A stretch of 39,724 nucleotides of DNA. Origin: a virus. Location of the stretch: the IMG/VR virus record IMGVR_UViG_3300018018_000099, positions 1-39,724 of that record. One strand, written 5' to 3'. Below are positions 13,199-30,985 of the stretch, in pieces; within the stretch, counting starts at the first letter, position 1, and every line of letters starts with the position of its first letter. Under the pieces are notes generated by a model. It was not told where the DNA came from, made no database searches, and worked only from the letters and a program-made list of their open reading frames with translations. The translations under genes and the position numbers were made by a program.

Positions 13199-13205
13199 AC
13201 TTCAC

Positions 13206-13448: not shown

Positions 13449-13455
13449 TGTTCAC

Positions 13456-13629: not shown

Positions 13630-13646
13630 AGTTCACCTCCTTGTGA

Positions 13647-14045: not shown

Positions 14046-15325
14046 TTCTTAATGCACCAGTGCTGGTCAAAGACGACCAACCCCGCTTCTTTCAACCACT
14101 CGTTTATATGTTTACTGTGGTCAAAGTGCATCGGGCTTATTTCATGTTCCCAGAAGCAATCATAATGATAGAACCTGGCACCTTCCTTCATTCCCGATCC
14201 TATCTTCAAGAGAAAGCTACGTAAGTCCTCTATGTGTTCCAGGGTGTCTATGACGATGATGAGGTCGAACTTTTCTATCTCTGGAAATTCGCTGGTGAAC
14301 TTCACATTTCTGGCTCCCAGTTTGTTAGCTCTGAACCTCGCAAAGTCTAATGCCTTCTCGCTGATGTCATACCCGACCAGGTTCTTATTTTCCCAGCAGA
14401 GTTCCAAGAGAGTAGTCCCTATGCCACAGCCGATGTCGAGGATGTGTAAATGCTCGGCGTTCTTGATCCCAGCCATCCTTTGTTCCTTATAAAAGGTTGC
14501 TGAATTAAACCCCACTAAGTCATAAAGGTAGAGCTGACCAATTTCGGGGTCTTTGTAGAATTCCTCTACTGTGCCTTGCCAATCCTTCCACTTATCAGCC
14601 AGTTGCTTGGTCGCTATGGCTTGTGGCATAAGGTCTTTTGTCCCCAGATATTCAGCAAGGTCATTCCAGATATCCTGTTTCTCTGGCTTCCATGTCATGT
14701 TTTCTATGGCTTCTCTGGTCGTGTAGATTTTTTCCTTCAGATGGGAAAGTTGAATCCCGGTATGGGCATAAACCTTTGCCCCAGCCTGTCTAACCTTATT
14801 GCAAAAGTCCCAATCTTCGCTGATAAAGATGTTTTCGTATTTCCCATCCTCAAAGACTGGGCAACATTCCGACCAGTTTCCTTTATTAAGAACGGGCATA
14901 TCCTTCGTGATTTTCTCAAGAATATTACGAGTGATACCAACGAAGCCTGTCGAGACAAACTGGACTTCCTCCAAATCGCCTGAGATGTGGAATTGCCCAT
15001 TCCAGCCCCTTTGAGCTAAGAATGCCCCTCCCCTGACTGGATATAGCCCACCTACAACGTCTAAACCGCCATTCAGGGCATCTAGTAACTTCTCTATATC
15101 TTCGACCCTAAAGATGATGTCCCCATCAAGGAATATCAGATAGGGTGCACAGTTTTTCTTTAAGAATTGGTAGGCTACTATGCTTCGACTTCGGCTTATG
15201 AGTGCGTCCCCTGTTTGGAACCACCACTCGAACCTGTGATTTGTGTTGTGTAACTTCTCTACACAGGTAATTGTTTCTACAGTAACCTGTCCGTAAGAAC
15301 AGGTGTATAGAACGAAATCTAGCAT
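14042..15325 (-). CDS. Glycosyltransferase-methyltransferase fusion (427 aa)
   Basis: Two enzymes in one chain. Residues 1-215 resemble a GT-A glycosyltransferase: PYLIFLDGDI holds a DxD-type metal site at 67-69, and ISEDWDFC at about 168-175 resembles the later acidic motif. From about 290 a class I methyltransferase follows, with LDIGCGIGTTLLEL (297-303 core), VGYDISEKALDFAR and VIDTLEH. It lies between capsid genes and connectors and is coupled to the nucleotidyltransferase gene. It could add and methylate a sugar on capsid or fibre proteins, or alter a host surface glycan. The target is not visible. Confidence 0.85.
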   Translation of the reverse strand: MLDFVLYTCSYGQVTVETITCVEKLHNTNHRFEWWFQTGDALISRSRSIVAYQFLKKNCAPYLIFLDGDIIFRVEDIEKLLDALNGGLDVVGGLYPVRGGAFLAQRGWNGQFHISGDLEEVQFVSTGFVGITRNILEKITKDMPVLNKGNWSECCPVFEDGKYENIFISEDWDFCNKVRQAGAKVYAHTGIQLSHLKEKIYTTREAIENMTWKPEKQDIWNDLAEYLGTKDLMPQAIATKQLADKWKDWQGTVEEFYKDPEIGQLYLYDLVGFNSATFYKEQRMAGIKNAEHLHILDIGCGIGTTLLELCWENKNLVGYDISEKALDFARFRANKLGARNVKFTSEFPEIEKFDLIIVIDTLEHIEDLRSFLLKIGSGMKEGARFYHYDCFWEHEISPMHFDHSKHINEWLKEAGLVVFDQHWCIKK

Positions 15326-15338
15326 AGCAGCCTCCTGG

Positions 15339-15761
15339 TTACGGAATTATGTAGTCTACGTAGACATCCCCTACGAGACTATCGGCGTTAGCAGCTACAT
15401 CCACGCCAACGAGTAAGAAGGCGTTTGTAGTAGTGCCCTTAGGTGATAGCCGGCAATTGCAGTTTATGCCAGCAGCGGGTCCAGTCACACTGTGGCCAAT
15501 GTTCAACGCATTGGTATTGAGAAGATACCCCGCAGCGTTCAGAACATTATCGCTGGCGTTGTCGCCTATGCCTACCACTAATTGTGAAGCTGCCTCCGCT
15601 ACCGTTCTGATTTCCGCCACTACCTTATCAACGAGGATAATCGCATCTTCAGGGTTTTCGAGAGTGGCAGCATTACCGGCAGCATTAGCATTGCTTATTG
15701 CTAACTTGAGCAGTCCCCTACGGACAACTGATGTCTGTCCTAAGCTATACAATGTTCCCAT
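15339..15761 (-). CDS. Capsid-associated protein, possible decoration protein (140 aa)
   Basis: 140 residues, very rich in Ala, Asn and Val, with short beta strands and no charged linker. It follows the major capsid gene directly, the usual place of a decoration or cement protein. AAAGGAGAAC precedes ATG 15761. The single Cys pair (NCNCRL) is a small oddity. Family not recognised; the role is inferred from position. Confidence 0.6.
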   Translation of the reverse strand: MGTLYSLGQTSVVRRGLLKLAISNANAAGNAATLENPEDAIILVDKVVAEIRTVAEAASQLVVGIGDNASDNVLNAAGYLLNTNALNIGHSVTGPAAGINCNCRLSPKGTTTNAFLLVGVDVAANADSLVGDVYVDYIIP

Positions 15762-15784
15762 ATTTAGTTCTCCTTTATTAGATT

Positions 15785-15807
15785 AGGGGGTTTAAGCTAG
15801 TCCCCCT
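15785..15807 (-). other. Hairpin just after the major capsid gene
   Basis: AGGGGG and CCCCCT arms with an 11-nt loop lie directly behind the capsid stop. There is no T tract, so this is more likely an RNA-stabilising 3' hairpin or a weak terminator than a full stop. Confidence 0.5.
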
Positions 15808-16799
15808 TAACTGGTAGCATCTATCGCCGTTGTCTGGCAAATGCTATGAATACGAGCCACAGATGTGGTTGCACCCATCGCCAGGGCAACATAACAGTAA
15901 GCTCGGATGCCCTCAGCGTTGTAGTCCTCCAGTTTGTCAAAGTGATCGACCTCGAAGAAATCTTTTCCACCGGTTGAACCGCCAACAACGAGGCTGACAC
16001 CGCCATCTTCAATAGACCCGGTTCTGATAGCGTAAACGCTCACCAGGGCTGTGGAAGCCTTCCCGCCGGTGTTGTCGGTCTCGGTAGTCATAAAATCCGA
16101 TACGACAATGGGAATACCATTGACGAAGGAAATCATTTTGCCGAACTCGTCTGGTTGCCGAGCCATCACAATAGCCCCAGCCTTGCCCATCGAGTAGATG
16201 AACAACTTGTCTTGAATTGTCCCAGGCATCAGGATGAAACTCGGTCTTGGTTTGCACGCCCTTATAAGTCCGAGCAGGGCTGCGATTGACAGACCAACAG
16301 TTCCACCGCCCATGTCATAGTCTTGGTAAGTAGCCCAGGCATTATGACCGCCGGTGGCAGCACAAAGCTTGTCCAACCCATCAAACTGCTTGGGGTATGT
16401 GGTTGCATTGCCATAAATGAGCTGGTCCTCAATAGTTCTCAGTGCTCCTTTTATGATTTGAGCCTGAATAACCCCTCTGTAATCATTGGGGTCTTTGTAG
16501 GTCTCCTGAGCACCCTTGACCAATGCCCACTGGTCACCATATTCCTTTAATCCCAGAGTAACCTGGGAGTAGGTGGCTACTTCCTTCCACCCATATTGCT
16601 CGCCCTTCGACTTTTCAGAGATGCTAGGCTGTGTTCCCTCTCGGTTCCACTTTAGTGTATAAGCATCAACGGTTGTGACTGGCAATCGGGGTAAAAGTTG
16701 GCCAACCTCATAGACCTGTTGAACAACACCGGGCAATAGTTTTGATTGCGTCAGCTTGTTCATTTCGTCTGGACTTGAAAAATATCCAGTAATTGCCAT
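15807..16799 (-). CDS. Major capsid protein
   Basis: 330 residues, the normal size for an HK97-fold capsid protein without a delta domain. It begins MAITGYFSSPDEMNKLTQSK and contains a long helix-like segment (EQYGWKEVATYSQVTLGLKE) and a conserved-style late region (FILMPGTIQDKLFI, GIPIVVSDFM). It lies immediately after the scaffold gene, with AGGAGGATTCAC before ATG 16799. No N-terminal delta domain or protease gene is present, which agrees with a separate scaffold. The assignment rests on size, order and general resemblance. Confidence 0.85.
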   Translation of the reverse strand: MAITGYFSSPDEMNKLTQSKLLPGVVQQVYEVGQLLPRLPVTTVDAYTLKWNREGTQPSISEKSKGEQYGWKEVATYSQVTLGLKEYGDQWALVKGAQETYKDPNDYRGVIQAQIIKGALRTIEDQLIYGNATTYPKQFDGLDKLCAATGGHNAWATYQDYDMGGGTVGLSIAALLGLIRACKPRPSFILMPGTIQDKLFIYSMGKAGAIVMARQPDEFGKMISFVNGIPIVVSDFMTTETDNTGGKASTALVSVYAIRTGSIEDGGVSLVVGGSTGGKDFFEVDHFDKLEDYNAEGIRAYCYVALAMGATTSVARIHSICQTTAIDATS

Positions 16800-16817
16800 G
16801 TGAATCCTCCTGTAAAA

Positions 16818-17513
16818 TTATTTTTCTTTTCGGAAGGTATCAGCATAAATCTGTGGTGCTGATTTGCCCGCCGTAGATTCTTTATGGCCAGATGTCACAC
16901 CAGAGTCAACTTTAAGAGGTTCGCTTTCCGCTGGTCGTTTCAGCGTTTCGCTTATCCGTTTTGCGAGTGCCTTGGCTTGCTCAGCAGTTGTCAGGTTGAG
17001 ATCCTTCATCGTGTCCTTGAGAGTCACTGGGTTGACATTAAATTCAGCCCCGATTTCCCATAGTTCAATCTCTAACTGAGTTTCCTGGGCTGCTTTAAGA
17101 GCTTCGGCGTGTTCTGTCTTGTCACGCTCAAGTGCTGCCCTATCCTTCTTGAGTGCATCCCTTTCGGCTTGCAGATCTAGTTGGTTTTTCTCCCTAGCCT
17201 TCCGTTCCTGGTATGCAGTCAATTTAGTAGGGTCACGCCGGGCATCCTCTAATTCCGCTTCGTCTCTCCGCCTTTTAATGTCGTTTATCTCAGCCTCGTG
17301 AGCTTTGATAGCTTCATCTCTAGCATTAAGACTTGCCTCTTTGTCGGCTAGTGCCTTGGCATCCCTGCCCTTAGCAGCGAGGGCATCGCTTATCCTCTTG
17401 TTTACTTCGTCCTCGGTGTAAGTCTTGGTTGTTGGAGTAGTCCCCTCGGTTCCCTGAGAAGTCTGTCCAGGCTTCTGAAGAGAGTCCTCTGGTTTCCCTT
17501 TGGTTTCGTCCAT
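16818..17513 (-). CDS. Capsid scaffolding protein
   Basis: 231 residues. A disordered acidic N-terminus is followed by a long charged coiled coil (about 35-150), then a short folded segment (LWEIGAEFNVNPVTLKDTMK) and a basic tail. This is the usual build of phage scaffolds encoded next to the capsid gene. AAGGAGGTATAA precedes ATG 17513. A terminator stands just upstream, so scaffold and capsid may need readthrough or a separate promoter that I cannot see. Confidence 0.85.
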   Translation of the reverse strand: MDETKGKPEDSLQKPGQTSQGTEGTTPTTKTYTEDEVNKRISDALAAKGRDAKALADKEASLNARDEAIKAHEAEINDIKRRRDEAELEDARRDPTKLTAYQERKAREKNQLDLQAERDALKKDRAALERDKTEHAEALKAAQETQLEIELWEIGAEFNVNPVTLKDTMKDLNLTTAEQAKALAKRISETLKRPAESEPLKVDSGVTSGHKESTAGKSAPQIYADTFRKEK

Positions 17514-17525
17514 TTATACCTCCTT

Positions 17526-17551
17526 AAATAAAAATTCCCGCATTTAGCGGG
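17526..17551 (-). terminator. Terminator between the 2037-aa gene and the scaffold gene
   Basis: On the minus strand CCCGC-TAAAT-GCGGG is followed by AATTTTTATTT. The scaffold ribosome-binding site comes right after it. It is short but has a good T tract. Confidence 0.7.
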
Positions 17552-17601
17552 CTCGACTTTTTGCCACTCTTAAAGGTGGTGGCTCACCCAACGACCCTAA
17601 C

Positions 17602-17630
17602 TTGACAATTATTTATTTCGGGTATAGATT
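17602..17630 (+). promoter_or_regulatory. Rightward promoter for the 51-aa membrane protein
   Basis: TTGACA (17602-17607) is followed after 17 nt by TAGATT, or after 15 nt by TATAGA. Predicted transcription starts fall at about 17635-17637, two to four bases before the ATG at 17639. It points against the surrounding late genes. Confidence 0.65.
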
Positions 17631-17638
17631 AAAATAGT

Positions 17639-17794
17639 ATGAAAAATCGTTCTAGGGGCAAAGAAACATTCATAGAATTAGTAACAAACCCTGTATTCTG
17701 GTTTGTTGTCGCCATGATTTGTTTTTTAATTTTTGTTGGAATCAACCAATCCCAAGCTGCGATGTGGTATGGTCAACCAGGAACTGGCGGTTAA
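17639..17794 (+). CDS. Small single-pass membrane protein, moron candidate (51 aa)
   Basis: A 51-residue frame reading against its neighbours. A basic start (MKNRSRGKE) is followed by one membrane helix (about 17-36, VFWFVVAMICFLIFVGI) and a short Gly-rich tail, suggesting the C-terminus is outside. No ribosome-binding site is present, and the promoter would start the message within a few bases of the ATG, so it is probably leaderless. It stops one base before the stop of the 2037-aa gene, leaving no spare DNA. A lone gene with its own promoter in the late block is typical of prophage-expressed proteins, some of which block superinfection. That role is inferred. Confidence 0.65.
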   Translation: MKNRSRGKETFIELVTNPVFWFVVAMICFLIFVGINQSQAAMWYGQPGTGG

Positions 17795-20700
17795 TTATTT
17801 ATTTCGCTTTGCAATTTCATCTTGATAGTATTCTATGCTCTTGTAGTTTGCAGTGCCTACCCATCCCCAGTTATCCATCGCCCAGTTAGTAAAGTCAGGA
17901 TGGAGTAAACGCCACAATTTAGCGTCAATGCTATTCCCGCCGTATTGACCAGCGAGTTTAGTATAGTCAAAGTAATCTGGTACTAGACTTTGGGGCGGCA
18001 ATCCTAGCCCCATCTGGCCTAATGAGATATTGAGTTCCTGACTCCACTTCACCACTAAGTCATAGGCTTGTTGAGTTTGTAACTTCCCACCATATCCCCA
18101 TAGAGCAAGCCTGGCATCATCTTCGGGATGAGAAGCCCGCCATTCTGCTCTCCAATCCTTTGATAAATCAGGATTATCTGTTAAGAATTGGTCTTTCTCA
18201 GCATCGGACAATCCCTGATATTGTGACCATAGTGTATGATATTCGGCTGGCACATCGGCTTCAGCCAGTTGATAAAGCGGTTTGTAAGGCAACTGCCAGT
18301 ATCCCAAACCTAATGTGTCCTTGTCCTCTGCTAATCTAACGAGAGCTGGGTCAAGTCCTGCCTGGTATTTCTTATCCGAGTACATCTGCCTGATCACGTT
18401 GTACATATCCTGACCCCATCTTGTGATGTAATCGTCAACCGCTTTATCCTTGGCATCCCAGTCATAGTCTCCTTTATCATTCGTGTAGTCTGAAAACATA
18501 ACCTGTTGATAATCGGCTAGGGCTAAATCAATGTTCCAGTCATATTTATTCCCCTTCGCTGCCTGCGAAGCGAAGTAGTCGTATATTTCTTGATAGTGAG
18601 GGTCTTTCTCTAAACTATCCAGCATCACACCATAGTTCTGCCCAGCATCGCCCCACGCCGTCCTGAGGTCTTTGGTATTAAGTTGCCCGCTTCTGATTTG
18701 CCCCATGAGGTCATTCCCTCTGTTATAGTAAATCGTCTGTTCCTCAGTCGTCCTCTGTGTCCATGCCTTCCACACGCCCGAACTCCGCAGAGCATTATCA
18801 GCCTGAGCCGTTGAGTAATAATTATTTAATTCGGGATACATTGATAAAAGTTCCGTCTGAAGTGGACCTGGCAACATACCCCATTCCAATTTGCCTTGTT
18901 TCTGAATATCAAGAATCTTCGTTAACTCATCCTGAGTAAAGTATTTAGCTAACGTATCTTTGGGAATCGTGTTAAGTATCTGGGTAGCCTGGTCATAGAA
19001 TTGCACCCAGGCACTTTCGGGAAATGTCCTGAGACCAAATAATTCCCCCGCAGCAGTCGCTACCCGCGCTGCTCCTTCGGGTATCTCATAGTCTCTGGCC
19101 CCACCGGGAATCATCCAGTTGATTCCTTGCTCCATCCAGATAGGTTCAAATCGGGTAGCGATATATTTAAGGTATTCCATTGGTGTCTCAATAGGATAGC
19201 CGAGATAATCTCTACCAGTGGCAAGTTCATACCCCACTCCCACCAGCGGTGAAGAACGAGAAAACCACCAGGAGACAAAGGGATTGTCTATCTTATTTAG
19301 AGAGCCATTCTTCATTATGCGAATCAGGTCTATCGGCTCTTTCCCGCCGATGCTCTCAATACAACCTAGAATGTTTCCTGCTAATCTCACCATACCGTAC
19401 CAGAACCCGCCGATGCCATAATTGTAGTTTCCAACCTTTATGCTCATAAACTGAGCCGATGGTTTCCATGTCGTTTCGCCAGTTATCGGGTCTGTTTGAA
19501 TACCAAACCCCTGCATGACGGAATCCCAGGCTTGCTCACTTGATTTGCCTTCCAAGGTTGATAATCCGTATTGCATACCCGCATACATCATTGCCCCAGC
19601 ACCTATCATTCCCCCGATAGCTTTTCTGGCCATGTCTCCTGTATAACCACCTCGAAATATGTCGGCCAACACCGTTAGGCAGGCTCTCGTATAGTTCGGT
19701 GCAAACCAAATAAAGGTCGTTTCTAATTGCTTTGTGATTATCGGCACACCTAAAGCTCTTGAATCAACAATGCCTGTCATCCTGTCCAGGAATCGAGCCA
19801 GTTCAAATTCCTTCCCTTGAGTAAGAGCTTTCGGAGATAGAATCTTCCAGAACTCATCTCTTACAATTTCCGTAGCCGAAGAAAAGGAAAGTTCCGCTCT
19901 TTGATAGATAGGTAACTTATCAAATAATCTTCCTAATCCCGATGAAGCCTCTAGCCGAAGATAATCACTTCCGATTGAACTTCCGCCAAAAGCTAATCTC
20001 TGTAAGATAGTATCTGAATTCTTTGCCATCAGTCTGAAGATGCCGTCAGGGTCGAAATATGCCCTTATAGAGTAACCGAGTGCCTTATACCAACTCCCCA
20101 TTAACTTCATGCCAGTCTGAGGGTCAACTAACATATAAGCATGAGCCATTCCCCAGGACGGCATACCCTGAATTGCCATAGCGGAAAGGTCTAAGGCAGC
20201 CTTAGTGATTCTCAGAATTCCCGCGACATCACCAACGACACTTAACCCTGGCAATCCCGCTTCACGCCCGAAGAACTTATTGAAGGCATCAATAAATTCC
20301 CTATCGTATATCTTCCCGCCGGCGAAAGGTTGCATGATGAATCCTTCTCCAAGACTGGGTTGCCTTACTTGCTCCATTGCAAAGGATTGAGCATTTCTGG
20401 CTTCCCAATAAGCACCTTTTCTAGTCTCGCCTAGTGTCTTGACTTCACCCTTGAGTGAATTGAACTCTGCCTTCAGGTCAGCGGCAGACTTCACTGGTGG
20501 TAAATCATAAGTTACCTTAGCAATTTGAGGTTTGCCTTCTAGCCCCTTAATTCCCTCTATCTGAGGCTTGATAACCACATCTGGCGGTGGCAATCCTGCC
20601 TGCTTGTGTAGTTCAACTAATTTGTTGTAGTCCTCTAGGGATAACTGGGTTAATTTGCCTTTCCCTGCTGGTTGCACAGAAGTTTCATAGCCAAAAATAT

Positions 20701-23700
20701 CCTTTTGTAATCCCGCCTCTGGCATCCCCGGGGCAGCCTTTGGAAAATACTCTGCGGTATTCTCCACATTGTCTAGCACCCCCAGAATCTTCCACATACT
20801 GTCTTTCCTCTTAGTAGCCTCGCCTATTAAGATACTGAGGTCATTTGCCTTGATCTTCAGAGTGCTTATTTGCTCTATCTTGTTGATAAGGTCTTGCTCA
20901 CCCATGTTGAAATGGTCGGCAAGTTCGTCTAGTACATATTCCCAAGGAACTCTACCCTCTTGATTTATGACTTCAGGAGCAACCTTAGCCCCCATTGTCA
21001 GCATTTCGGCTTGCTTGACCGTTACAGTCTCAGGCCATCTCCCACCCTTTAGTAATGATAGGAGGCTGGTTTCTTGTTCCCCTACATGACCGCGGTATGA
21101 TGCCACGGGGTCACTTGCCAGTGTTTCCCTTATCCCAGCAAGTTCATTACCTTGGTCACTAACCATCTTTTGAATATCCTCAAATTGGCTCGTAATCGTT
21201 GAACGGAAAGCTAATCTATCTTCCTGGGGCATTGTGCTAAAGACTGCGGTTAATTTCTCTGTATCGGGTAAGGCTTTTAGTGGTTCGAGTGCTACTGTCT
21301 CTTTTCTTTGCAGTGCTTCAGTTAATTGAGTGATGGTCTTTTGGTTCTCTGCCAATATGTCTCTTAATCCCTTTTCGCTAGTGTTGCCTCCCTCAACTAA
21401 AGTTCTTAACTTAGCCCCTTGCTCTGGGAATCGCCTCTCAATAGCTTTTAATGTCCCTTCGGGTAATGTTTCCCCCCTCATCGCCCTATTGATAACATCG
21501 CTGAAATGATTAACATTGGCCAGTTCTTCGGTTCTTAATACCGCCTTCCTTGCCAGTGTTCTGCCTTCGGCAGTGGGTATCTCCTCAAATAACTGTGGGT
21601 ATAGATTTAATAATCGCTCGCTTGGCGTTTGCCCTTCTTTGCCAAGTGTCTCTAATCCTTCGCCCACATAATTGATAAATCTATTATCTCCGACTTGCTT
21701 GAAAGCCTCTTGAAGATAGGTAGCCATTGAGGTTTCAGGATTGATGTTATATTTAATTCCATCGGCTATCCCCTCCGCCATTGTTTGATAAGCTCGATGC
21801 TTTTCATAAGAGGCTTTAGCCCCGATAGCCCTTGCTCCTATGCCTGGCTTTCCCCTAACTTCGATTATCTCGCCGGTGGGTGCTGTCTTGCCTTCCACGA
21901 CTCTGTGCATCCACCATTCGTCTAAGACATTCTGTGGCGCGATGCCCTCCTTCTTGAGCATATTAAGAATTTCAGTATTTAGTTCATGGAACTTGGTTAC
22001 ATACTGCAAACCTTTATCAAGATTCGCCCAGCTATACATCTCAGGGTGAGTGAACACGTGCTCTAGTGTTCCCGCTGCTTCTCTTTCTGATGCGTATTCT
22101 GGTAGTAATCGCTCAATCATCAAGGCTGATTCGGCTTTCTCATTAAACCCGAACAATTTAACAGGGTCGGAGACAATCGCCCTTAATTCCGATATGACAG
22201 GGAAAACGGCTTGCCTCCCCATCCTGGTGAATTCAACTTTTAAGACAGCTCCATGAGCCACCATATCTTCTATTGTGGTCGCCTCAGCATCGGTTATGAT
22301 TCTCCAGCCTAAAGTCTTCTCGATAATTGATTTTATCGGTGGAACCTTAGAAACCGTCTGCAAGGCACTCTTCATCCAGTTATCCTTCAATGTCGCTTGT
22401 AGAAGCTCATCGCTCCCCGGCAAGTCCATTAAAGTAACAAGGTGGTCACTTTCATTGAGTAGCTTTTTGGTCAGTTGTTCGCCTAAAGCAGCCCCCACTT
22501 TCTGCAACCCTTGAAGTCCTAATTCAAGAGGTTTCGTTATTGGATAAGCTATCCCTCTTTCAATCGCTTGCACTCCAGCTGCGGTCTTCATGGCAGCCTC
22601 GCCTATCACTGGAACTTTGCTTAATGATTCGGCTATCCCACCCGCTATATCCCCAACGGGGATTAAATAGATAGGATTCAGCCATTCCATAATCTCAACT
22701 GGCATCATAAAAGGCACCCTTTCCATTTGCCCCCACATGGATTCTTTAGTCTTATATCCTTGATATATCTGATTCGCTTCATCCGAAAAGACTGATGCCC
22801 AGCCATATTTGTCCCAGACTGTTTGCATATCTTGTGCTGTTTGCAAGGTATCGACATTGCTTCTTCCGAGTAAACCTTCCATAGCCAATTTCTGCCCCAG
22901 AATGAAAATTTGCCATGGTCTATCAATATACTTATTCCATGTGCTAGCAACCACACCAAAGGTTGCCAATGCAACGTCAGCAAAAGTTTTAGGGACCTGA
23001 GTAACAGTTTCAATCTTCTGTATATTCGCTTGCTCAATTCCCCCGGGTTTCTTGCCGAAGATTGTTGAGATAACATCTGAGATAGCGCCTGTTATCCCGC
23101 TCACTATATCCCCTATCTCTTGAGTGAGTTGCTGCCATATATTAGGTGCCGAGGTTACGGGAGTTTCGGTAGTTTCCCCGAATATCTGAGATATTTCCTC
23201 GTTGGTTATATCGGGATTAAGAGCTTTTAATAAAGTCTCGGTATCTGGAGTTCTGCCAATAGTCCTCAAATCGGTCAAAAATCCTTTGGGGTTGGTGTCA
23301 ATGTAGTTTAAGACTTCATCAACACTTTCCTGAGGAAAAACCTTGCCGAAGACTTGCTCAGTTTCGAGTTGTTGCTGCTCCTGTAGGTTGTACCATCCCG
23401 CGACATCTAGCACCCCTCCACCTTGCTGATATGTTTGATATGCTTGCTTTCCCTGGTCTGTCAAGTTATCTATGGTTAGAGGTGCCGTTGGTAACTCTTC
23501 ATTCGTCAGCCCACCTGTCGGCACACTTAGGAGCGCCTGCATATCCGCTTGTGAATACTTCTCTCCAGTCGGAGAGATGTAATTGTTATCCTGTGTAATT
23601 TCCCACTTTGAAGGCGTTATAAAGCTGATGCCATAACCAGACTGATCCTGATTCGGGGTCATCTTCAGCATCCAACCTTCCTGAAGCGAGAGCCCCATAT

Positions 23701-23908
23701 TTTGAGCCTCGCTGGGTGTGAAGAATAACGGCTGGGACGGGAAAGCAGTCGTAAGTTGTCTCTGCGAAATAGCAGTCGTAAGTTGGGGATACATCTCACG
23801 CACTTCTTTTAAGGAAGTACCATATTGGCTTAAAAGTCTTTCAATCTCCGTATCCTTGGCATCCCTGTATTGCGTCAGTAAGTTTTCTGCGTTTAAGTCA
23901 ATGCTCAT
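17795..23908 (-). CDS. Giant virion-associated protein, possible ejection protein (2037 aa)
   Basis: At 2037 residues it takes up about a sixth of the prophage. It begins MSIDLNAENLLTQYRDAKDT and is Gln-rich. Hydrophobic stretches occur at about 270-460 (DIVSGITGAISDVISTIFG, EWLNPIYLIPVGDIAGGI). A long helical middle follows, then at about 1450-1650 a segment resembling the large polyvalent-protein regions of other phages (TTFIWFAPNYTRACLTVLAD, GGMIGAGAMMYAGMQYGLS). The C-terminus is Asp/Tyr/Trp-rich. It lies between portal and scaffold and no tape measure exists, so a role as an internal protein ejected with the DNA is likely. No enzyme motif stands out. A 15-bp repeat at 23744 and 23771 gives two LTTA(F/I) copies. 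The start overlaps the previous stop (ATGA). Confidence 0.8.
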   Translation of the reverse strand: MSIDLNAENLLTQYRDAKDTEIERLLSQYGTSLKEVREMYPQLTTAISQRQLTTAFPSQPLFFTPSEAQNMGLSLQEGWMLKMTPNQDQSGYGISFITPSKWEITQDNNYISPTGEKYSQADMQALLSVPTGGLTNEELPTAPLTIDNLTDQGKQAYQTYQQGGGVLDVAGWYNLQEQQQLETEQVFGKVFPQESVDEVLNYIDTNPKGFLTDLRTIGRTPDTETLLKALNPDITNEEISQIFGETTETPVTSAPNIWQQLTQEIGDIVSGITGAISDVISTIFGKKPGGIEQANIQKIETVTQVPKTFADVALATFGVVASTWNKYIDRPWQIFILGQKLAMEGLLGRSNVDTLQTAQDMQTVWDKYGWASVFSDEANQIYQGYKTKESMWGQMERVPFMMPVEIMEWLNPIYLIPVGDIAGGIAESLSKVPVIGEAAMKTAAGVQAIERGIAYPITKPLELGLQGLQKVGAALGEQLTKKLLNESDHLVTLMDLPGSDELLQATLKDNWMKSALQTVSKVPPIKSIIEKTLGWRIITDAEATTIEDMVAHGAVLKVEFTRMGRQAVFPVISELRAIVSDPVKLFGFNEKAESALMIERLLPEYASEREAAGTLEHVFTHPEMYSWANLDKGLQYVTKFHELNTEILNMLKKEGIAPQNVLDEWWMHRVVEGKTAPTGEIIEVRGKPGIGARAIGAKASYEKHRAYQTMAEGIADGIKYNINPETSMATYLQEAFKQVGDNRFINYVGEGLETLGKEGQTPSERLLNLYPQLFEEIPTAEGRTLARKAVLRTEELANVNHFSDVINRAMRGETLPEGTLKAIERRFPEQGAKLRTLVEGGNTSEKGLRDILAENQKTITQLTEALQRKETVALEPLKALPDTEKLTAVFSTMPQEDRLAFRSTITSQFEDIQKMVSDQGNELAGIRETLASDPVASYRGHVGEQETSLLSLLKGGRWPETVTVKQAEMLTMGAKVAPEVINQEGRVPWEYVLDELADHFNMGEQDLINKIEQISTLKIKANDLSILIGEATKRKDSMWKILGVLDNVENTAEYFPKAAPGMPEAGLQKDIFGYETSVQPAGKGKLTQLSLEDYNKLVELHKQAGLPPPDVVIKPQIEGIKGLEGKPQIAKVTYDLPPVKSAADLKAEFNSLKGEVKTLGETRKGAYWEARNAQSFAMEQVRQPSLGEGFIMQPFAGGKIYDREFIDAFNKFFGREAGLPGLSVVGDVAGILRITKAALDLSAMAIQGMPSWGMAHAYMLVDPQTGMKLMGSWYKALGYSIRAYFDPDGIFRLMAKNSDTILQRLAFGGSSIGSDYLRLEASSGLGRLFDKLPIYQRAELSFSSATEIVRDEFWKILSPKALTQGKEFELARFLDRMTGIVDSRALGVPIITKQLETTFIWFAPNYTRACLTVLADIFRGGYTGDMARKAIGGMIGAGAMMYAGMQYGLSTLEGKSSEQAWDSVMQGFGIQTDPITGETTWKPSAQFMSIKVGNYNYGIGGFWYGMVRLAGNILGCIESIGGKEPIDLIRIMKNGSLNKIDNPFVSWWFSRSSPLVGVGYELATGRDYLGYPIETPMEYLKYIATRFEPIWMEQGINWMIPGGARDYEIPEGAARVATAAGELFGLRTFPESAWVQFYDQATQILNTIPKDTLAKYFTQDELTKILDIQKQGKLEWGMLPGPLQTELLSMYPELNNYYSTAQADNALRSSGVWKAWTQRTTEEQTIYYNRGNDLMGQIRSGQLNTKDLRTAWGDAGQNYGVMLDSLEKDPHYQEIYDYFASQAAKGNKYDWNIDLALADYQQVMFSDYTNDKGDYDWDAKDKAVDDYITRWGQDMYNVIRQMYSDKKYQAGLDPALVRLAEDKDTLGLGYWQLPYKPLYQLAEADVPAEYHTLWSQYQGLSDAEKDQFLTDNPDLSKDWRAEWRASHPEDDARLALWGYGGKLQTQQAYDLVVKWSQELNISLGQMGLGLPPQSLVPDYFDYTKLAGQYGGNSIDAKLWRLLHPDFTNWAMDNWGWVGTANYKSIEYYQDEIAKRNK

Positions 23909-24084
23909 TGTCCCATCCCTTGAGGCGGGGGATTACCCTTATTTAACTGTGCTTGTGCCAGTAACTTTTGCATGGCAGTTGGTTTTGGAACCCCTCCTTG
24001 CCCTCCACCTTGAACAGGCTGTTGTTGGAGAGCATCAATCACCATTTTGTCTAAATCCTGTTGAGCAAACTTAAAGTTAGCCAT
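23905..24084 (-). CDS. Small Gln-rich protein between portal and giant protein (59 aa)
   Basis: 59 residues starting MANFKFAQQDLDKMVIDALQ, with a Gly/Gln linker and a second helix (AMQKLLAQAQLN). It overlaps the portal gene end by 8 bp and the giant gene start by ATGA. AGGAAGAA precedes ATG 24084. This coupling shows a real gene. Two short helices joined by a flexible linker suggest a portal-binding or cargo-linking peptide, which is a guess from shape. Confidence 0.7.
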   Translation of the reverse strand: MANFKFAQQDLDKMVIDALQQQPVQGGGQGGVPKPTAMQKLLAQAQLNKGNPPPQGMGQ

Positions 24085-25795
24085 TTCTTCCTACCCCCTG
24101 AGCCACAGTCGGCTCGGTTCCAGTAGATGACGGTCTGTCTTGCCCGCCTCCTCCACTAAGAAGTGGTATCAATTCCTTCCCTTGTTGGGTCTCTCCTGGC
24201 TTAACCTTCTTTTCTATCCCACTTAACGTCCCTGTCATTTGCCTTTGTCCCAGGATAGTCACTATCCGTTGTGCCAAGATATAGGCTTCAACTTGATTCT
24301 TTAAGGTTACTTTCTTCCCCTCAAGGAGACTGCTTGCCCTTCGATAAAGGAACAATACCTCGTCAACCTTCTCCGCTTGCTCTGATTCGTATTTAATCTT
24401 CTCTCCATCGGGGTCCTTGACTTTCAGTATCTCCCGCCTGATTGTATCGCTGGAATAGTAACCCTGAGCAGCATTAGCAATAGAGAGGTCGGCAATACCT
24501 TGTTCCTTCGATATATTAAGGAAGCGGTAGGTGATTGTATAAGCACCCTTCAAATCACTTGGGGAGTAGGTATTCTGACTCCCTGGTTGCCCTAGGTTTA
24601 ATGTCTTATTCAGCATTATGCACTGGTCAATTATCATTCGGCTAAGAGCCTGATTGAAAACAGCTTTATTCTGTACATATGGCAACATAATGTCATTTCT
24701 GGCAATAGTGAGTTTCGTAACCGTTATTGCAGCAAGGGGGAAGGTTAAAGACCCATAATCCAGAGCCGTGAAACCTGTCTTTTGCAAATCTGCCTCAATT
24801 ATCGAATAAAGTAGTCTTGTGGCACTCTTAATATCGTTAATAGGCATTGGTCTATAACCGCCACCTTTTTCTACAGGATTGACCTTTTCAGCTCCATAAG
24901 GTGACTCTCCTGGTTTAGTGGCATTCATCCCCTTTTCGTTTTCTAATTGCATCCCACCCCGCAATGCCTCTATGGTCATTGTTGTTAGTATAGTAACAAT
25001 CCTATTTTTCTCATCATAGAGGGTGCGGTTTGGCCACAGTATACTTTCCCCCTGATGCGCCGTAGCATTTTCTGTACTAAGCATTGAACCAAAGGGGGCA
25101 ATAGCCTCTATAAACGGCGGATACTTATAGGGGTTTTCTTGCTCTTTAACTATGTTTTTATCAACAAAGACCACATTCTTTTCAGGGTTCCAGAAGTCAA
25201 CAACCTCGCCAAATGCACCCTCAACCTTGATATTATCTCCGTACTCTTTTTGAATCTTTGCCTTTGACCTCATAAACCAGGGAGCACCCCAGGTCATATC
25301 TTCCCCATCGTTATCAGAGACAAAGCACCGGGCATCTAAGGGGAGAACATCAGGGATAAAGTTCCCTTCTTCATCTATTTTCATACATGACCTAGCGGGG
25401 ATACGCCCGCGGACGCAATCTTGCTCATTAGTAAAGCCGTCTAACCCTAGTTTCCCCTGCTTTACTAATCGTTCATCTATCATGTAATAAATGTCGTCAA
25501 GAAACTCCTCAATTTTGGTAGTTTCCTTATCCGTCTTATCACGCCCTTCAATTACCTTCTGCATATCAAGTCCACCTAAGAGAGCCTTCGCTTTATTGAC
25601 GAATGCTTGAGAGTCAGGTAATGTCACATTGGCTATCCCCTCCATATTCTTACTGTCTTGGGGCGGGAGTTTCTTCATCTTGTAGGGCGTAAGGAAATAG
25701 AGTCCTTCGTCCGTGTCCATACGGGCAAAGATGCTCGCCATTTCCTCTTTTCTAGCTATGAATAGTTTATATTCCTCTCGTGATTCGTCTGCCAT
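24077..25795 (-). CDS. Portal protein
   Basis: 572 residues, a usual size for a portal. It starts with a charged helix (REEYKLFIARKEEMASIFAR). It has a wing/clip-like centre (VNKAKALLGG, VVDFWNPEKNVVFVDKN), helices at about 330-430 typical of the stem and crown (LQKTGFTALDYG), and a long helical, Gly-rich C-terminus. AAGGAGCAAC precedes ATG 25795. It lies after terminase and before scaffold and capsid, the standard order. The assignment combines order, length and overall resemblance. Confidence 0.8.
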   Translation of the reverse strand: MADESREEYKLFIARKEEMASIFARMDTDEGLYFLTPYKMKKLPPQDSKNMEGIANVTLPDSQAFVNKAKALLGGLDMQKVIEGRDKTDKETTKIEEFLDDIYYMIDERLVKQGKLGLDGFTNEQDCVRGRIPARSCMKIDEEGNFIPDVLPLDARCFVSDNDGEDMTWGAPWFMRSKAKIQKEYGDNIKVEGAFGEVVDFWNPEKNVVFVDKNIVKEQENPYKYPPFIEAIAPFGSMLSTENATAHQGESILWPNRTLYDEKNRIVTILTTMTIEALRGGMQLENEKGMNATKPGESPYGAEKVNPVEKGGGYRPMPINDIKSATRLLYSIIEADLQKTGFTALDYGSLTFPLAAITVTKLTIARNDIMLPYVQNKAVFNQALSRMIIDQCIMLNKTLNLGQPGSQNTYSPSDLKGAYTITYRFLNISKEQGIADLSIANAAQGYYSSDTIRREILKVKDPDGEKIKYESEQAEKVDEVLFLYRRASSLLEGKKVTLKNQVEAYILAQRIVTILGQRQMTGTLSGIEKKVKPGETQQGKELIPLLSGGGGQDRPSSTGTEPTVAQGVGRNG

Positions 25796-25804
25796 AGTTG
25801 CTCC

Positions 25805-26089
25805 TTAATGTCTGCTAAAGTAGTGTGTTAAAAATGTAATGATGGCACTGATAATTGCAGCAACGGCACCCCCGATTCCTGCCTTTTGCTTCTTACTCAA
25901 GGAATGGTGATTTGAATCGCAATTTGAATTGCCGATTCTTTCCTTGATAGTTGCCAGGTCTTCACCATGCTTAATAACAACCTTTTTGAGTTCGATGGCT
26001 GTTTCTTTCACTTCCTTGACATCTTCCTGTATGTGTGCAGTTCTTTCATCAATTCTAGCTACTATTGCTGGTAATTTTTCCTGGACCAT
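25805..26089 (-). CDS. XhlA-like coiled-coil membrane protein (94 aa)
   Basis: 94 residues: an amphipathic coiled coil (AHIQEDVKEVKETAIELKKV) over residues 8-55, then one C-terminal membrane helix (IGGAVAAIISAIITFLTHYF). This is the layout of haemolysin XhlA-type proteins that work with holins. The position between terminase and portal is unusual for a lysis gene. With two other small membrane proteins upstream (27763-28324) it may form a split lysis group. AGGAGGATAAC precedes ATG 26089. Confidence 0.7.
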   Translation of the reverse strand: MVQEKLPAIVARIDERTAHIQEDVKEVKETAIELKKVVIKHGEDLATIKERIGNSNCDSNHHSLSKKQKAGIGGAVAAIISAIITFLTHYFSRH

Positions 26090-26099
26090 AGTTATCCTC

Positions 26100-27305
26100 C
26101 TAAAATTGCCACACAGGCATTATTTGCCCTGGAGTTGCCGTTGCAAAGCCAAACCGTTCTGTTAAGCCTAGAGAGCCATATCTCCCAGCGTCGCAAGAGT
26201 GGTCCCGAATCTTCACTGGCTCTTCCAGAACTTTGCCGTCTTTGTCTTTCTTACGGCTGTAGTTTCTAACTTCCTTGATGGTGTCCACACTTGACTTTGA
26301 TATATGCAAGGGTTGTCTTCTTACCAGGTCGAGCCCCATCTTCACATCTTTATTAGCCGGGTAAATAGTCCAGCCAGCCCTTGATATTTCCTCAATCCTG
26401 TCTGGCTCCGCCGAATCAGCATAGATATCGGCTTTATCCTCATGCGTAAGCCGTTCTATCAAGTCGGCATTGGTCAGCCCTGTTTGATATACCCGTTCAT
26501 CCCAATACAGCTTTTTATTTGATAGGATGACCTTAATTAGTGCTGTGGGGTTTACGAAGCCGAAATCTAAACCATAACCCCATGCCTGCCAATCACATTT
26601 AGGCGGTAACTCATCAACTATCTGAAAATCTGGCCAAATCAAGTTCTCCAGGTGCCCTAACAAACCTAATCCGTAGACATTCCACCAGTTTGCGTCTTTG
26701 CCTTTGTTGGACTCGATATTCTGGACAACTTCCTTTGGTAAGACTTTCAGAGCATCTAAGTAAGTGCTGTGGATATAGGCACTATCGGCTTCCTGTATCC
26801 AGCCCGGGATTTTCTTGCCCTGAGCCTCGTACATATGTACCCAAAACTCTGTCACCGGGTTCCAGTCCACGATAGTGAACTTAGATGTCCGTATGTCTAA
26901 AGCCCTTGCTGTCTCCCAGGGCACATTGTTGCCCTCATTGATGAACAGAATATCTCTTCTGGGACCGCGCACCTTGTCCGATTCGTCAGCCCCGAAGAAC
27001 TCTATCTTTGCCAGCCCGAAATCATATCTGAATAAAGTCTTGGACCACCGGGGGTTATTGTCCTCTGATTCACCGAGGACTCTGAAGAAGTCTCGGATAC
27101 AACCTCTCCGCAAATGAGGCAATGACTCTGAGGTAATCGTTGTAAGCAGAGGCGCCTTAGCCCCCTGAGATATTAGTATTAACGCTTGAAGGATTGACCA
27201 TGTTTTGCTTGACCAAGTACCCCCCTCATGCAGACAGCGCCTATATCCCCCTAACCATGCTTTAAGGGTATCCTCAAATACCCTTGTCGTCTCTAGTTGC
27301 ATCAC
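26100..27305 (-). CDS. terL: Terminase large subunit
   Basis: 401 residues. The ATPase half has a degenerate Walker A (EGGTWSSKT, 27-35), Walker B DILFINEGN (118-126) and a coupling-type FTIVDWNP. The nuclease half shows GYGLDFGFVNPTAL (Asp247), ADIYADSAEP (Asp297) and RDHSCDAGRYG (Asp368/372), the three-acid RNase H-like site. It packages DNA through the portal. It overlaps the small subunit gene by 32 bp. The start is GTG 27305 or ATG 27302. Confidence 0.92.
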   Translation of the reverse strand: MMQLETTRVFEDTLKAWLGGYRRCLHEGGTWSSKTWSILQALILISQGAKAPLLTTITSESLPHLRRGCIRDFFRVLGESEDNNPRWSKTLFRYDFGLAKIEFFGADESDKVRGPRRDILFINEGNNVPWETARALDIRTSKFTIVDWNPVTEFWVHMYEAQGKKIPGWIQEADSAYIHSTYLDALKVLPKEVVQNIESNKGKDANWWNVYGLGLLGHLENLIWPDFQIVDELPPKCDWQAWGYGLDFGFVNPTALIKVILSNKKLYWDERVYQTGLTNADLIERLTHEDKADIYADSAEPDRIEEISRAGWTIYPANKDVKMGLDLVRRQPLHISKSSVDTIKEVRNYSRKKDKDGKVLEEPVKIRDHSCDAGRYGSLGLTERFGFATATPGQIMPVWQF

Positions 27306-27681
27306 TTCGTTTCCCTGATAAGACTTCGCCCACCATGTCTTTAACTTGCTCGTTGCTCACTACTACCGTGAAGATTAAATCCTTCCCTCCCTCTCCCCCT
27401 ATTGGCTGAGTAACCTTCCCCTCTAGTCTATCAAGTAGCATTTCAAAGTATCTGGTATCGGTTTTCGCTTTCTCATACCAGACTTCAGCTAGCAATTGTT
27501 CTTTAGTCTTGCCTTTCCCAGCAGGTGTCTTCATAAGACGGCGCAGACATTCGGTAACTGATTTTTCTTTCAGTGGTCGGCCATGAGGATTATGTGTCTC
27601 ACCCTTTTTACAGGGTATTAAATTTGCCAGCGACTTAGCACTTATATGTCGCCCATTTTTAGCCAGTTTAATCTCTTCCAT
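27274..27681 (-). CDS. Terminase small subunit-like protein
   Basis: 135 residues. NPHGRPLKEKSVTECLRRLM resembles the GRP-type N-terminal motif of DUF5681-type proteins often encoded before terL, followed by helices and an acidic linker. It would recognise the packaging site. AGAGGAACAAG precedes ATG 27681, inside the preceding small gene. Assignment is mainly from position and motif. Confidence 0.75.
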   Translation of the reverse strand: MEEIKLAKNGRHISAKSLANLIPCKKGETHNPHGRPLKEKSVTECLRRLMKTPAGKGKTKEQLLAEVWYEKAKTDTRYFEMLLDRLEGKVTQPIGGEGGKDLIFTVVVSNEQVKDMVGEVLSGKRSDATRDDKGI

Positions 27682-27763
27682 CTTGTTCCTCTAAAGTCGT
27701 TGTTTCCTCTGGGATTGTTATGTTACTCTCAGCCCAGCTAAAAGCATCATTCTCAAATTCCAT
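27668..27763 (-). CDS. Small acidic peptide (31 aa)
   Basis: A 31-residue frame starting MEFENDAFSWAESNITIPEE. Its ATG shares one base with the stop of the membrane peptide before it, and its end overlaps the terminase small-subunit start by 14 bp. It is strongly acidic with no membrane segment. Coupling at both ends supports it, but it could be translated only to carry ribosomes into terminase. Confidence 0.45.
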   Translation of the reverse strand: MEFENDAFSWAESNITIPEETTTLEEQDGRD

Positions 27764-27840
27764 TATCTACCCCATAGTAAGGCGACAACTAATGCTGCAC
27801 TCAAGATTCCGATTATGACGAGTAAAACCTTATTGTTCAT
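27763..27840 (-). CDS. Single membrane-helix peptide (25 aa)
   Basis: 25 residues, nearly all one hydrophobic helix (VLLVIIGILSAALVVALLWG), with AAAGGAAAAC before ATG 27840. Its place just after a holin-like gene suggests a lysis helper or pinholin-like peptide. Very short, so confidence is moderate, but the ribosome-binding site and coupling are good. Confidence 0.5.
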   Translation of the reverse strand: MNNKVLLVIIGILSAALVVALLWGR

Positions 27841-27855
27841 GTTTTCCTTTATGGT

Positions 27856-27893
27856 CCTAGAGCGGGTGAACCATTTAGCCCACCCGCTCTAGG
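27856..27893. repeat. Perfect 13-bp inverted repeat before terminase
   Basis: CCTAGAGCGGGTG and its exact complement flank a 12-nt loop. No T tract follows on either strand. It may be an RNA processing hairpin, or a terminase-recognised site given that packaging sites often lie near terminase genes. Confidence 0.8.
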
Positions 27894-27916
27894 TCTTTCC
27901 CCTTCTGCCGAAAATA

Positions 27917-28324
27917 TTATGGCTTTGAAGGACCGGTAGTTGTGGGGCTAATGGCAGCCTTGACACCGCTAACGATGGTACCAACGGTGCGGTTGCTAAC
28001 AACATCAACACCTGCGCCATATAAGACCGCCCCGATAATAATTGCCCAGTTAATCTTGTCTATTACCGGGTAGGCTAGGGCAGCAACTCCAGCAGCTAAA
28101 AATGCCATGAGTACACTTATGAGAAACTTGCGGGCGACAAAAACCTCACCTGATTTCGCCCACCCCAGAAGAGCTGCCAGAAGACCACCACCCCACGCTG
28201 CTAGTGCCAACCATAAATACCCTAAGTCTGTTACTTGTCCGCCTGTATCTGCCGCTACGGCAATAGGCACCATCACCATGACCAGTAAGGTTAGCAGAAG
28301 AGCAATACTAATTATTTTTTTCAT
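27917..28324 (-). CDS. Holin-like membrane protein, first late gene (135 aa)
   Basis: 135 residues: a signal-like start (MKKIISIALLLTLLVMVMV, VAADTGG), then three further hydrophobic helices (YLWLALAAWGGGLLAALLGW, FLISVLMAFLAAGVAALAYP, INWAIIIGAVLYGAGVDVV) and a short tail. It looks like a multi-pass holin or a phage-encoded membrane protein. GGAGGTGAAC directly before ATG 28324 decides the start; an ATG four codons earlier is part of that site. It is the first gene behind the triple terminator, so it depends on readthrough. Confidence 0.8.
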   Translation of the reverse strand: MKKIISIALLLTLLVMVMVPIAVAADTGGQVTDLGYLWLALAAWGGGLLAALLGWAKSGEVFVARKFLISVLMAFLAAGVAALAYPVIDKINWAIIIGAVLYGAGVDVVSNRTVGTIVSGVKAAISPTTTGPSKP

Positions 28325-28351
28325 GTTCACCTCCATTTTTCTTTTTCATTT

Positions 28352-28376
28352 AAAAGAGCGTTCGACTACTCGCTCT
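28352..28376 (-). terminator. Third hairpin of the late leader
   Basis: On the minus strand AGAGCG-(10 nt)-CGCTCT is followed by TTTAAAT. The T tract is weaker than in the other two. Confidence 0.6.
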
Positions 28377-28390
28377 GATAAATGCCTGGA

Positions 28391-28417
28391 AATAGAAAAG
28401 CCACCCTTTCGGATGGC
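28391..28417 (-). terminator. Second terminator of the late leader
   Basis: On the minus strand GCCATCC-GAAA-GGGTGGC, a 7-bp stem with a GNRA tetraloop, is followed by TTTTCTATTT. Confidence 0.85.
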
Positions 28418-28420
28418 AAC

Positions 28421-28443
28421 AAAAAACCCGCCGAAGCAGGCTT
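28421..28443 (-). terminator. First terminator of the late leader
   Basis: On the minus strand AAGCCTGC-TTCG-GCGGGTTT, a stem capped by the very stable C(UUCG)G loop, runs into TTTTTT. G-U pairs that only form in the leftward RNA show its direction. Confidence 0.9.
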
Positions 28444-28464
28444 GGGACGTATTTCGCCCCGTAC
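28421..28464 (-). ncRNA. Predicted short terminated leader RNA of the late operon
   Basis: If the promoter at 28471-28499 fires and the first terminator works, an RNA of about 44 nt results. It contains no ribosome-binding site. It would correspond to the lambda 6S RNA. This is a prediction from the promoter and terminator only. Confidence 0.4.
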
Positions 28465-28470
28465 ATTTTC

Positions 28471-28499
28471 ACACTATCACATACTAAAGTCTTTGTCAA
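28471..28499 (-). promoter_or_regulatory. Late promoter candidate (pR'-like)
   Basis: On the minus strand TTGACA (28499-28494), 17 nt, then TAGTGT (28476-28471). The -35 box overlaps the stop codon of the 149-aa regulator candidate. Three terminators and then all late genes follow. Confidence 0.7.
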
Positions 28500-28945
28500 G
28501 TGACCATCTTGACTACTTTTTGGTAGTCATTTCTGCGGTATATCCTTTGTTTGAGCCAGGCATTAAAAGGCATGTCTTTCTGCCTCCAGCCCTTGACATA
28601 CATCAGAGCATCCCGAGCCTCGGCGTCTAATGTCTCTAGCCCTCTTCCTGCCTCGATTTGGGCGACTAATAGTTTCCCGTGTATGCCTGTTCTCCTTAAT
28701 CTGAACTCTACTTCGGCAAGTATCAGAATCGGTTTAGTAAAGGATGCTTCGGTCTTGATGTTTCTTTGTCCAACGTTGTCGCTTGAGTTATCGGGGTCTT
28801 GCGGCCAGCGACCAGCTCGTAATGTTGTTGCGCAGCTAATTATCCACACGACTTGATAAGGGCAGAATCTAATCTCGGCATAATTGAACCATTCAGGAGG
28901 GATGCATAGTCTATAATCCTTACAACGCTGGCAGTCGCCGTTCAC
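28496..28945 (-). CDS. Cys-rich putative late regulator in the Q position (149 aa)
   Basis: I do not recognise the family. 149 residues with an N-terminal Cys cluster (C5, C8, C14, C28; spacing C-2-C-5-C-13-C) that looks zinc-binding. A hydrophobic segment with CPYQVVWIISCATTLRAGRW follows. The helical C-terminal half has AEVEFRLRRTGIHGKLLVAQ and a basic end (GWRQKDMPFNAWLKQRIYRR). GTG 28945 overlaps the previous stop (GTGA) with AGGGAAGG in front. The stop runs into the late promoter, and three terminators separate that promoter from the late genes. This gene order matches lambda-type Q antiterminators, several of which also bind zinc. A sigma-like or activator role is possible instead. Confidence 0.7.
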   Translation of the reverse strand: MNGDCQRCKDYRLCIPPEWFNYAEIRFCPYQVVWIISCATTLRAGRWPQDPDNSSDNVGQRNIKTEASFTKPILILAEVEFRLRRTGIHGKLLVAQIEAGRGLETLDAEARDALMYVKGWRQKDMPFNAWLKQRIYRRNDYQKVVKMVT

Positions 28946-29154
28946 CCTTCCCTCCCTTGAACATCAACCGAGTAATTAGGAGACTGTTGCATGATCCTTT
29001 CTAACTCTTCAGGTGCTTCAAGTTTGGCTTCAACGTGAATCTTTCTTTTGTCCTCATCCTTCGGAGGCACGAAGTCTAATCCTGTCAGGTTCTTATAAAC
29101 CTTTGCTAGGTTCACCTTATTTATTGGTGAAAGCATGTCCCAAAGTTTTGCCAT
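28942..29154 (-). CDS. Small hypothetical protein upstream of the putative late regulator (70 aa)
   Basis: 70 residues (MAKLWDMLSPINKVNLAKVY, then a Lys/Glu-rich linker). ATG 29154 is chosen because AAGAGGTTAAC precedes it; upstream TTG codons lie in a terminator tract. It overlaps the next gene by GTGA, so both are one unit. It is the first gene after the 29.2-kb terminator. It may act with the 149-aa protein. No family recognised. Confidence 0.65.
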   Translation of the reverse strand: MAKLWDMLSPINKVNLAKVYKNLTGLDFVPPKDEDKRKIHVEAKLEAPEELERIMQQSPNYSVDVQGREG

Positions 29155-29191: not shown

Positions 29192-29240
29192 AAAAAAAGG
29201 CGAATCTTGAGATCACAATTTGTGACCTCAAAACTCGCCT
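29192..29240 (-). terminator. Strong terminator at the early/late boundary
   Basis: A long imperfect stem on the minus strand, with AGGCGA/TCGCCT outer arms and a near-perfect TTGAGGTCACAA/TTGTGATCTCAA inner dyad, runs straight into TTTTTTT. It follows the last early gene and precedes the regulator pair. The inner dyad could also bind a protein. Confidence 0.9.
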
Positions 29241-29270
29241 CCAGTTCCTATGCTGGTCAGCTAATTTAGC

Positions 29271-30547: not shown

Positions 30548-30985
30548 TCAATAGTTGCTTTCTAGTTCCTTAATCTTCTGGGTGAATTCCTCTTTGAGAT
30601 TTAGAAGCTCATCCACAGTAAAGTGCTTGATTTCGGTAGCCATATCTTCCAGTTCATTCACGGCCTCTTCCCCATAAAGTGCTATAAGCGCCCGCCGGTA
30701 CTGGAGGATATTGCCGTCAAGAAATATGTTGCACCGAGGGCACTGTGCGTTCACGTTCACGAGGTTAAAAAGTGTAGCACTGTGCCTTCTATCAACGAGA
30801 TGTCCTGCTTGGGCAGTTTTATAATCAATCAGGCGCATACACGAAATGCACTTGCAATGTGTAAGCGTTCCTGTAGTTCGCAGACAATCTCGAAGGCGAA
30901 CATACTTGCTTAAGAGAAGCAAACATTCCTTTTTGAGCTTCCCGATGCTTTTGGTTTTCCTTTCTTTAGTCTTGAACATCATCAC
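30548..30985 (-). CDS. NinG/Rap-like recombination nuclease
   Basis: About 145 residues. CKCISCMRLIDYKTAQAGHL, NLVNVNAQCPRCNIFLDGN and the paired Cys spacing match the lambda NinG (Rap) family, which cuts Holliday junctions and other branched DNA during phage recombination. The His in AGHL and the second Cys pair form an HNH-like zinc site. The start is one of GTG/ATG/ATG at 30985-30979 behind AATTAGG. A helical C-terminus follows. Confidence 0.85.
   Translation of the reverse strand: MMMFKTKERKTKSIGKLKKECLLLLSKYVRLRDCLRTTGTLTHCKCISCMRLIDYKTAQAGHLVDRRHSATLFNLVNVNAQCPRCNIFLDGNILQYRRALIALYGEEAVNELEDMATEIKHFTVDELLNLKEEFTQKIKELESNY

Follow-up and report, generated by a model that had tools for sequence, protein, structure and literature searches.

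A family of cysteine-rich proteins encoded at late promoters of uncultured phages: candidate Q-type antiterminators

How are the late genes of a phage switched on when their promoter leads into hairpins and terminators, and when the gene that ends in this promoter resembles no known regulator? The question is raised by a 39.7 kb IMG/VR virus record (IMGVR_UViG_3300018018_000099), whose 39,724 nucleotides were analysed as a whole and are referred to as the window. The record looks like an integrated bacterial virus (provirus): one end carries genes for an arginase-family protein and an M50 peptidase, and near the other end an integrase gene adjoins a tRNA-Lys gene. The early genes run leftward on the minus strand and comprise a replication initiator, a NinG-type endonuclease and small ORFs. 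The final gene of this region, placed after NinG and before terminase, codes for a protein of 149 residues. The relevant genes and outlying terminators are as follows.

30548..30985 (−): NinG/Rap-type endonuclease gene of the early operon
29196..29242 (−): conserved terminator of the early operon (GGAGGCGAG...TTCGCC-T7), ahead of both the small gene and the Q-like gene
28942..29154 (−): small gene encoding MAKLW..., whose ATG lies within ORF 28942-29193; it immediately precedes the Q-like gene
28496..28945 (−): putative Q-like late antiterminator gene, 149 residues, GTG start
3023..28336 (−): late operon, with a small membrane-like protein, a terminase small candidate, terminase large, the major head protein and others
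27274-27681 (−): terminase small candidate in the late operon
26100-27305 (−): terminase large in the late operon
15807-16799 (−): major head protein in the late operon
11662..11685 (−): strong intrinsic terminator within the late operon, immediately ahead of ORF 9692-11644

The main ORFs downstream of the leader are all on the same strand as far as 3023, terminase large and the major head protein among them, as expected from the initial annotation, which had placed the late operon behind the leader. A late ORF of 2037 residues (17795-23908, minus strand) separates ORF 24077-25795 from the head gene region; no PHROG match was found for it at E 0.001.

The end of the 149-residue gene is part of a predicted promoter. 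Its TGA stop codon (28498-28496) sits within the −35 box TTGACA (28499-28494), so that the annotated overlap of gene and TTGACA-N17-TAGTGT promoter proved correct. The −10 hexamer TAGTGT (28476-28471), with TGn ahead of it, agrees with the consensus at just 3/6 positions, and a simple promoter scan missed the late promoter for this reason. The leader starts at about 28465, and its length up to the first start codon of the late genes (28336 or 28324) is approximately 130–140 nt, close to the 140 nt given initially. The elements, all predicted, are listed in the direction of transcription.

28494..28499 (−): −35 box TTGACA of the late promoter, perfect to consensus
28471..28479 (−): extended −10 (TGa-TAGTGT) of the late promoter, after a 17-bp spacer
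28444..28460 (−): start-proximal hairpin GGGGCG-AAATA-CGTCCC, without U tract, beginning about 10 nt past the −10
28421..28443 (−): intrinsic terminator 1 (AAGCCTGC-TTCG-GCGGGTTT, T6), canonical, stem 28443-28424, found by terminator scans
28394..28417 (−): intrinsic terminator 2 (GCCATCC-GAAA-GGGTGGC, TTTTC), canonical, stem 28417-28400, found by terminator scans
28352..28376 (−): weaker third hairpin AGAGCG-N10-CGCTCT followed by TTTT, stem 28376-28355, read directly from the sequence

Three hairpin terminators in series had been proposed. Two of these are canonical, while the third is weaker and was not picked up by the terminator scans. A search of the leader against Rfam returned no family. 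The arrangement has the gene order of lambda Q, pR′ and tR′ that the initial annotation had pointed out, with the gene in the same position and promoter, terminators and late genes following.

The protein carries a CX2CX5CX13C cluster (C5, C8, C14 and C28) in its N-terminal part and is helical in its C-terminal part. The cluster, noted from the single sequence, is a family feature: each of the four cysteines is kept in at least 90% of 26 aligned members, and together they probably bind zinc or an iron–sulphur cluster. Trp-47, Glu-66, Arg-82, Leu-114, Tyr-116, Gly-119 and Lys-123 are also (nearly) invariant. An AlphaFold2 model is helical (pLDDT 79.6, pTM 0.74), with predicted C-terminal helices at residues 108-118, 121-124 and 127-148. 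Neither the single protein nor the aligned members matched Pfam, PHROGs, NCBIfam or PDB sequences. A PADLOC search gave no credible relative either; lone weak matches to PADLOC and PHROG, by one family member each, were disregarded. Comparison of the predicted fold with PDB and BFVD (Foldseek) and by VIA-align gave chance-level matches only, with no known antiterminator among them. A Streptomyces phage match (E 0.08, 29%) was also judged to be due to chance. The protein had not been recognised as a known Q family, and these searches agree, having revealed no match to a known Q, ArpU or sigma family or to an unrelated enzyme. In the open-licence literature we found no published description of the family. 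One homologue (L012, 4423-4983) has a CxxCxGxG...CxxCxGxG finger inserted between the third and fourth conserved cysteines; the DnaJ-like motif of this finger is of the same kind as in lambda Q.

Scans of IMG/VR viral contigs and of two records searched directly identified homologues in 26 further distinct loci, about 32–67% identical where aligned, and no homologue was detectable in GTDB genome contigs, GenBank phages or plasmids. The set of 27 distinct loci consists of the window, L002-L013, L015-L017, L019, L020, L036, L038, L051, L054, L057, L061, L071, L072 and L075; near-duplicates (L014, L018, L052, L058 and L074) were excluded. The pairing of protein and promoter-terminator leader seen in the window recurs: in 24 of the 27 loci, which are related so that counts of loci are not fully independent, a near-consensus promoter and then hairpins or terminators follow the gene. 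A TTGACA promoter and a hairpin/terminator leader lie at most 350 bp from the stop codon in 21 loci. In L012, L036 and L016 the leader is found about 0.4, 0.9 and 1.55 kb further on, respectively, past inserted genes; the extended −10 of L012 is clear and its −35 is not. L008 has a promoter and lacks a clear terminator, in L013 no leader was found, and the sequence of L054 ends before any leader could show. Weaker cases are L009, where the hairpin has a poor U tract, and L002, with one bulged hairpin before T5. L057 and L061 have TACCCT as their −10 and lack TGn. The stop codon falls within the −35 box in eight loci (the window, L002, L004, L007, L015, L051, L071 and L075).

An automated scan of the first 18 loci detected promoter and terminator near the stop codon at 10 of 18 family genes, compared with 3 among 1782 random positions and 1 among 200 ends of other ORFs (0.2–0.5%). 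Six loci (L036, L038, L051, L057, L061 and L075) were retrieved after the pattern had been recognised, and all repeat the layout; L054, retrieved alongside the first five, breaks off too early to show whether it does. Both L071 and L072, which were reached via an upstream DNA element and not via the protein, carry gene and leader. The downstream terminases differ in PHROG family between loci and the succession of promoter, hairpin, terminator and late genes is retained, which indicates that the gene is linked to the leader and not to one inherited block.

The upstream element is a long terminator. In the form GGAGGCGAG...CTCGCC-T6+ it also occurs in L004, L005, L007, L010, L012, L015, L036, L038 and L077, located 0.7–1.9 kb ahead of the stop codon of the Q-like gene and usually directly before a small gene; in several loci the conserved sequence CAGCATAGGAACT lies 5′ of it. 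Nine stretches carry the DNA pattern: three are known loci, two (L066 and L068) have a family gene with a full leader, and in the four others no family gene was found in the DNA retrieved. Terminators of the lambda nin region delay the synthesis of Q, and by analogy the upstream terminator may delay that of the Q-like protein. Beside the Q-like gene, L002 (4717-4995) and L012 (5104-5373) encode a small helix-turn-helix-like protein with CxxCPxxxC, upstream of the gene in one locus and downstream in the other.

Proteins of the Q-type class bind an element between −35 and −10, and a −10-like element in the initial transcribed region causes a sigma-dependent pause. We aligned 18 promoters with a 17-bp spacer, all with TTGACA, which was the selection criterion, and most with TGn. 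The spacer columns hold little information beyond AA after the −35 and TG, and no conserved binding motif stands out there; the 13 columns past the −10 contain no conserved −10-like pause element. As a search probe, the DNA pattern TANNCTTGACAACAGNGGG, taken from the start region, matched mostly unrelated sequence.

Conservation is found in the start-proximal hairpin. The predicted transcripts of 12 aligned loci open with a GGGC/GCCC-type stem soon after the start. The hairpin alignment was hand-chosen and includes only loci with a visible hairpin; its covariation score of 0.292 (shuffled mean 0.191, reached by 0 of 500 shuffles) establishes conservation and not a mechanism, since the loci were selected for that hairpin and a DNA palindrome would covary likewise. 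Double changes occur at four pairs, and the score drops to 0.16 or less once the partner is slid.

Other structures accompany the leaders of individual loci. Longer structured RNA of two kinds lies between promoter and terminator, one in L011 (~2385-2520) and L017 (~5550-5660) with the pattern CCAGCTACC...CTGGCTACTAGCTGG, the other in L038 (~4820-4900) and L012 (~5420-5490) with GAGGG-CAAGGATGACCCGTATGGGTTAGCGCCGATAA; neither kind had an Rfam match. The late leader of L074 contains a complete tRNA-Met (CAT) gene (488-563) ahead of the terminator, and that of L071 a tRNA-remnant-like stretch (~2030-2070). Near-identical leaders stand behind clearly diverged proteins in L010 (+324 after the gene) and L036 (+918), which suggests exchange of leaders by recombination.

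With TTGACA in all 18 aligned promoters and TGn in most, the late promoter should not need an activator. If such a promoter lies upstream of terminators, termination makes most sense as the control point, and the gene adjoining the leader is the natural candidate for an antiterminator. The terminator at 11662-11685, inside the late operon, would also need to be read through; it leaves no space for a promoter ahead of the next gene, which suggests that a modification of RNA polymerase must persist. We consider it likely that the 149-residue protein represents an undescribed family of Q-type processive antiterminators, acting at the promoter at the end of its own gene and at the leader terminators. 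An undescribed antiterminator family had been suggested from the window alone, and the recurring layout together with the absence of family matches supports this reading at the level of sequence. The positional features of the Q-type class are present: the gene is directly upstream of the late promoter, and intrinsic terminators precede the first late gene.

The switch would operate as follows. The 149-residue protein would be made last from the early operon. The strong sigma70-type promoter in which its gene ends would fire unaided, and the transcript would halt at one or more intrinsic terminators in the short leader. Once present in sufficient amount, the protein would load on RNA polymerase at or just past the late promoter, possibly via the promoter spacer and/or during a pause at the start-proximal hairpin. 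The polymerase thus modified would pass the terminators of the leader and those further on, such as 11662-11685, and the late operon would be expressed. Promoter activity, terminator function and the modification of polymerase are all predictions of this scheme.

An unlikely alternative is that the protein activates the late promoter, the hairpins being incidental. In Gram-positive phages, regulators of the ArpU/RinA type, which are thought to activate the late promoter, sit just upstream of terminase, and the gene position suits such a regulator; the predicted C-terminal helices (108-118, 121-124 and 127-148) could in the model form a helix-turn-helix. However, a perfect −35 with a usually extended −10 is unlike activator-dependent promoters, in by far the most loci terminators separate the late genes from the promoter, and the protein has no ArpU match. 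It is very improbable that the terminators merely end early-operon transcription, with a constitutive but weak promoter and another early function for the protein. Terminators at the ends of early operons are common and the leader does sit at the early/late boundary, but a promoter upstream of the terminators defeats insulation, the order is kept despite the intervening genes in L012, L016 and L036, and the start-proximal hairpin covaries. Equally hard to credit is a genuine antitermination leader served by a host factor or by another gene such as the small one at 28942-29154, since relatives of the latter, although conserved at the same place in several loci, were grouped by blastp in just six, whereas no element is nearer to the leader, or more constantly linked with it, than the Q-like gene.

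The antiterminator reading has one speculative extension, for which we see rather little chance: recruitment by the start-proximal RNA hairpin instead of a promoter DNA element, with CX2CX5CX13C as a redox-sensitive iron–sulphur centre. If true, a Q-type switch would be loaded in a new way and late expression tied to the oxygen or redox state.

New here are the covarying start-proximal hairpin, the conserved CX2CX5CX13C cluster and the conserved terminator upstream of the gene. To our knowledge, the protein families that render RNA polymerase resistant to termination at the late promoters of phages are unrelated and number just a handful. One more from uncultured phages, without annotated relative, would be another independent solution to the same problem. 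The family may serve as a marker for locating late promoters in metagenomic phages, and its leaders form a natural set for asking how polymerase is captured.

As far as sequence tells, the protein would work like Q without belonging to the lambda Q or the 82Q-type family. With lambda Q (PF03589), which has metal-binding cysteines like the putative ones here, it shares the setting: a gene ending the early operon near NinG-type genes, a strong late promoter next, a terminator leader and then late genes. A NinG-type gene precedes Q in lambda, as the NinG/Rap-type gene (30548..30985) lies upstream of the Q-like gene here. In contrast, lambda Q has no sequence match to the 149-residue protein (hhalign probability 0.6%) and has two CxxC pairs instead of CX2CX5CX13C. 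The lambda promoter starts after the gene, whereas that of the window has the stop codon in its −35 box; the lambda leader runs about 190 nt to its terminator, whereas the first terminator of the window starts about 27 nt after the −10. The phage 82 Q-type proteins (Phage_antitermQ, PF06530) are late antiterminators with a Q-type gene order. They are comparable in role and expected gene order, but gave no match at E ≤ 1 in Pfam scans or in 15 records searched directly. The ArpU late regulators (TIGR01637) had no profile match. Elsewhere in the 15 family records, PF03589, 82Q-type and ArpU gave no match above the curated cut-off; one sub-threshold PF03589 stretch occurs in the L007 record.

Phage 21 Q and Pseudomonas AlpA, to judge from the portions of the reports cited, are expected to be similar in being small proteins that load near the promoter and allow read-through of leader terminators (PMC6606751, PMC9371919). 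They differ in having no PDB sequence match and no significant fold match to the 149-residue protein, and these portions describe a cysteine cluster for neither, as against four conserved cysteines here. Compared with their ring-like N-terminal nozzle and C-terminal helix-turn-helix, our model (pLDDT 79.6) has a helical C-terminal part and no significant Foldseek or VIA match. Caulobacter GafZ is likewise an antiterminator of a phage-type late cluster that resembles no Q protein; it differs as an alphaproteobacterial gene transfer agent (GTA) regulator acting with GafY and IHF, and is set beside the family by its description (PMC11150451). 21Q, lambda Q and 82Q form three families; no sequence similarity connects these and AlpA, and all four are yet thought to serve one function (PMC9371919). 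A relationship of the 149-residue family to any of these proteins is not detectable, and it is best read as analogous to lambda Q, 82Q, 21Q, AlpA and GafZ.
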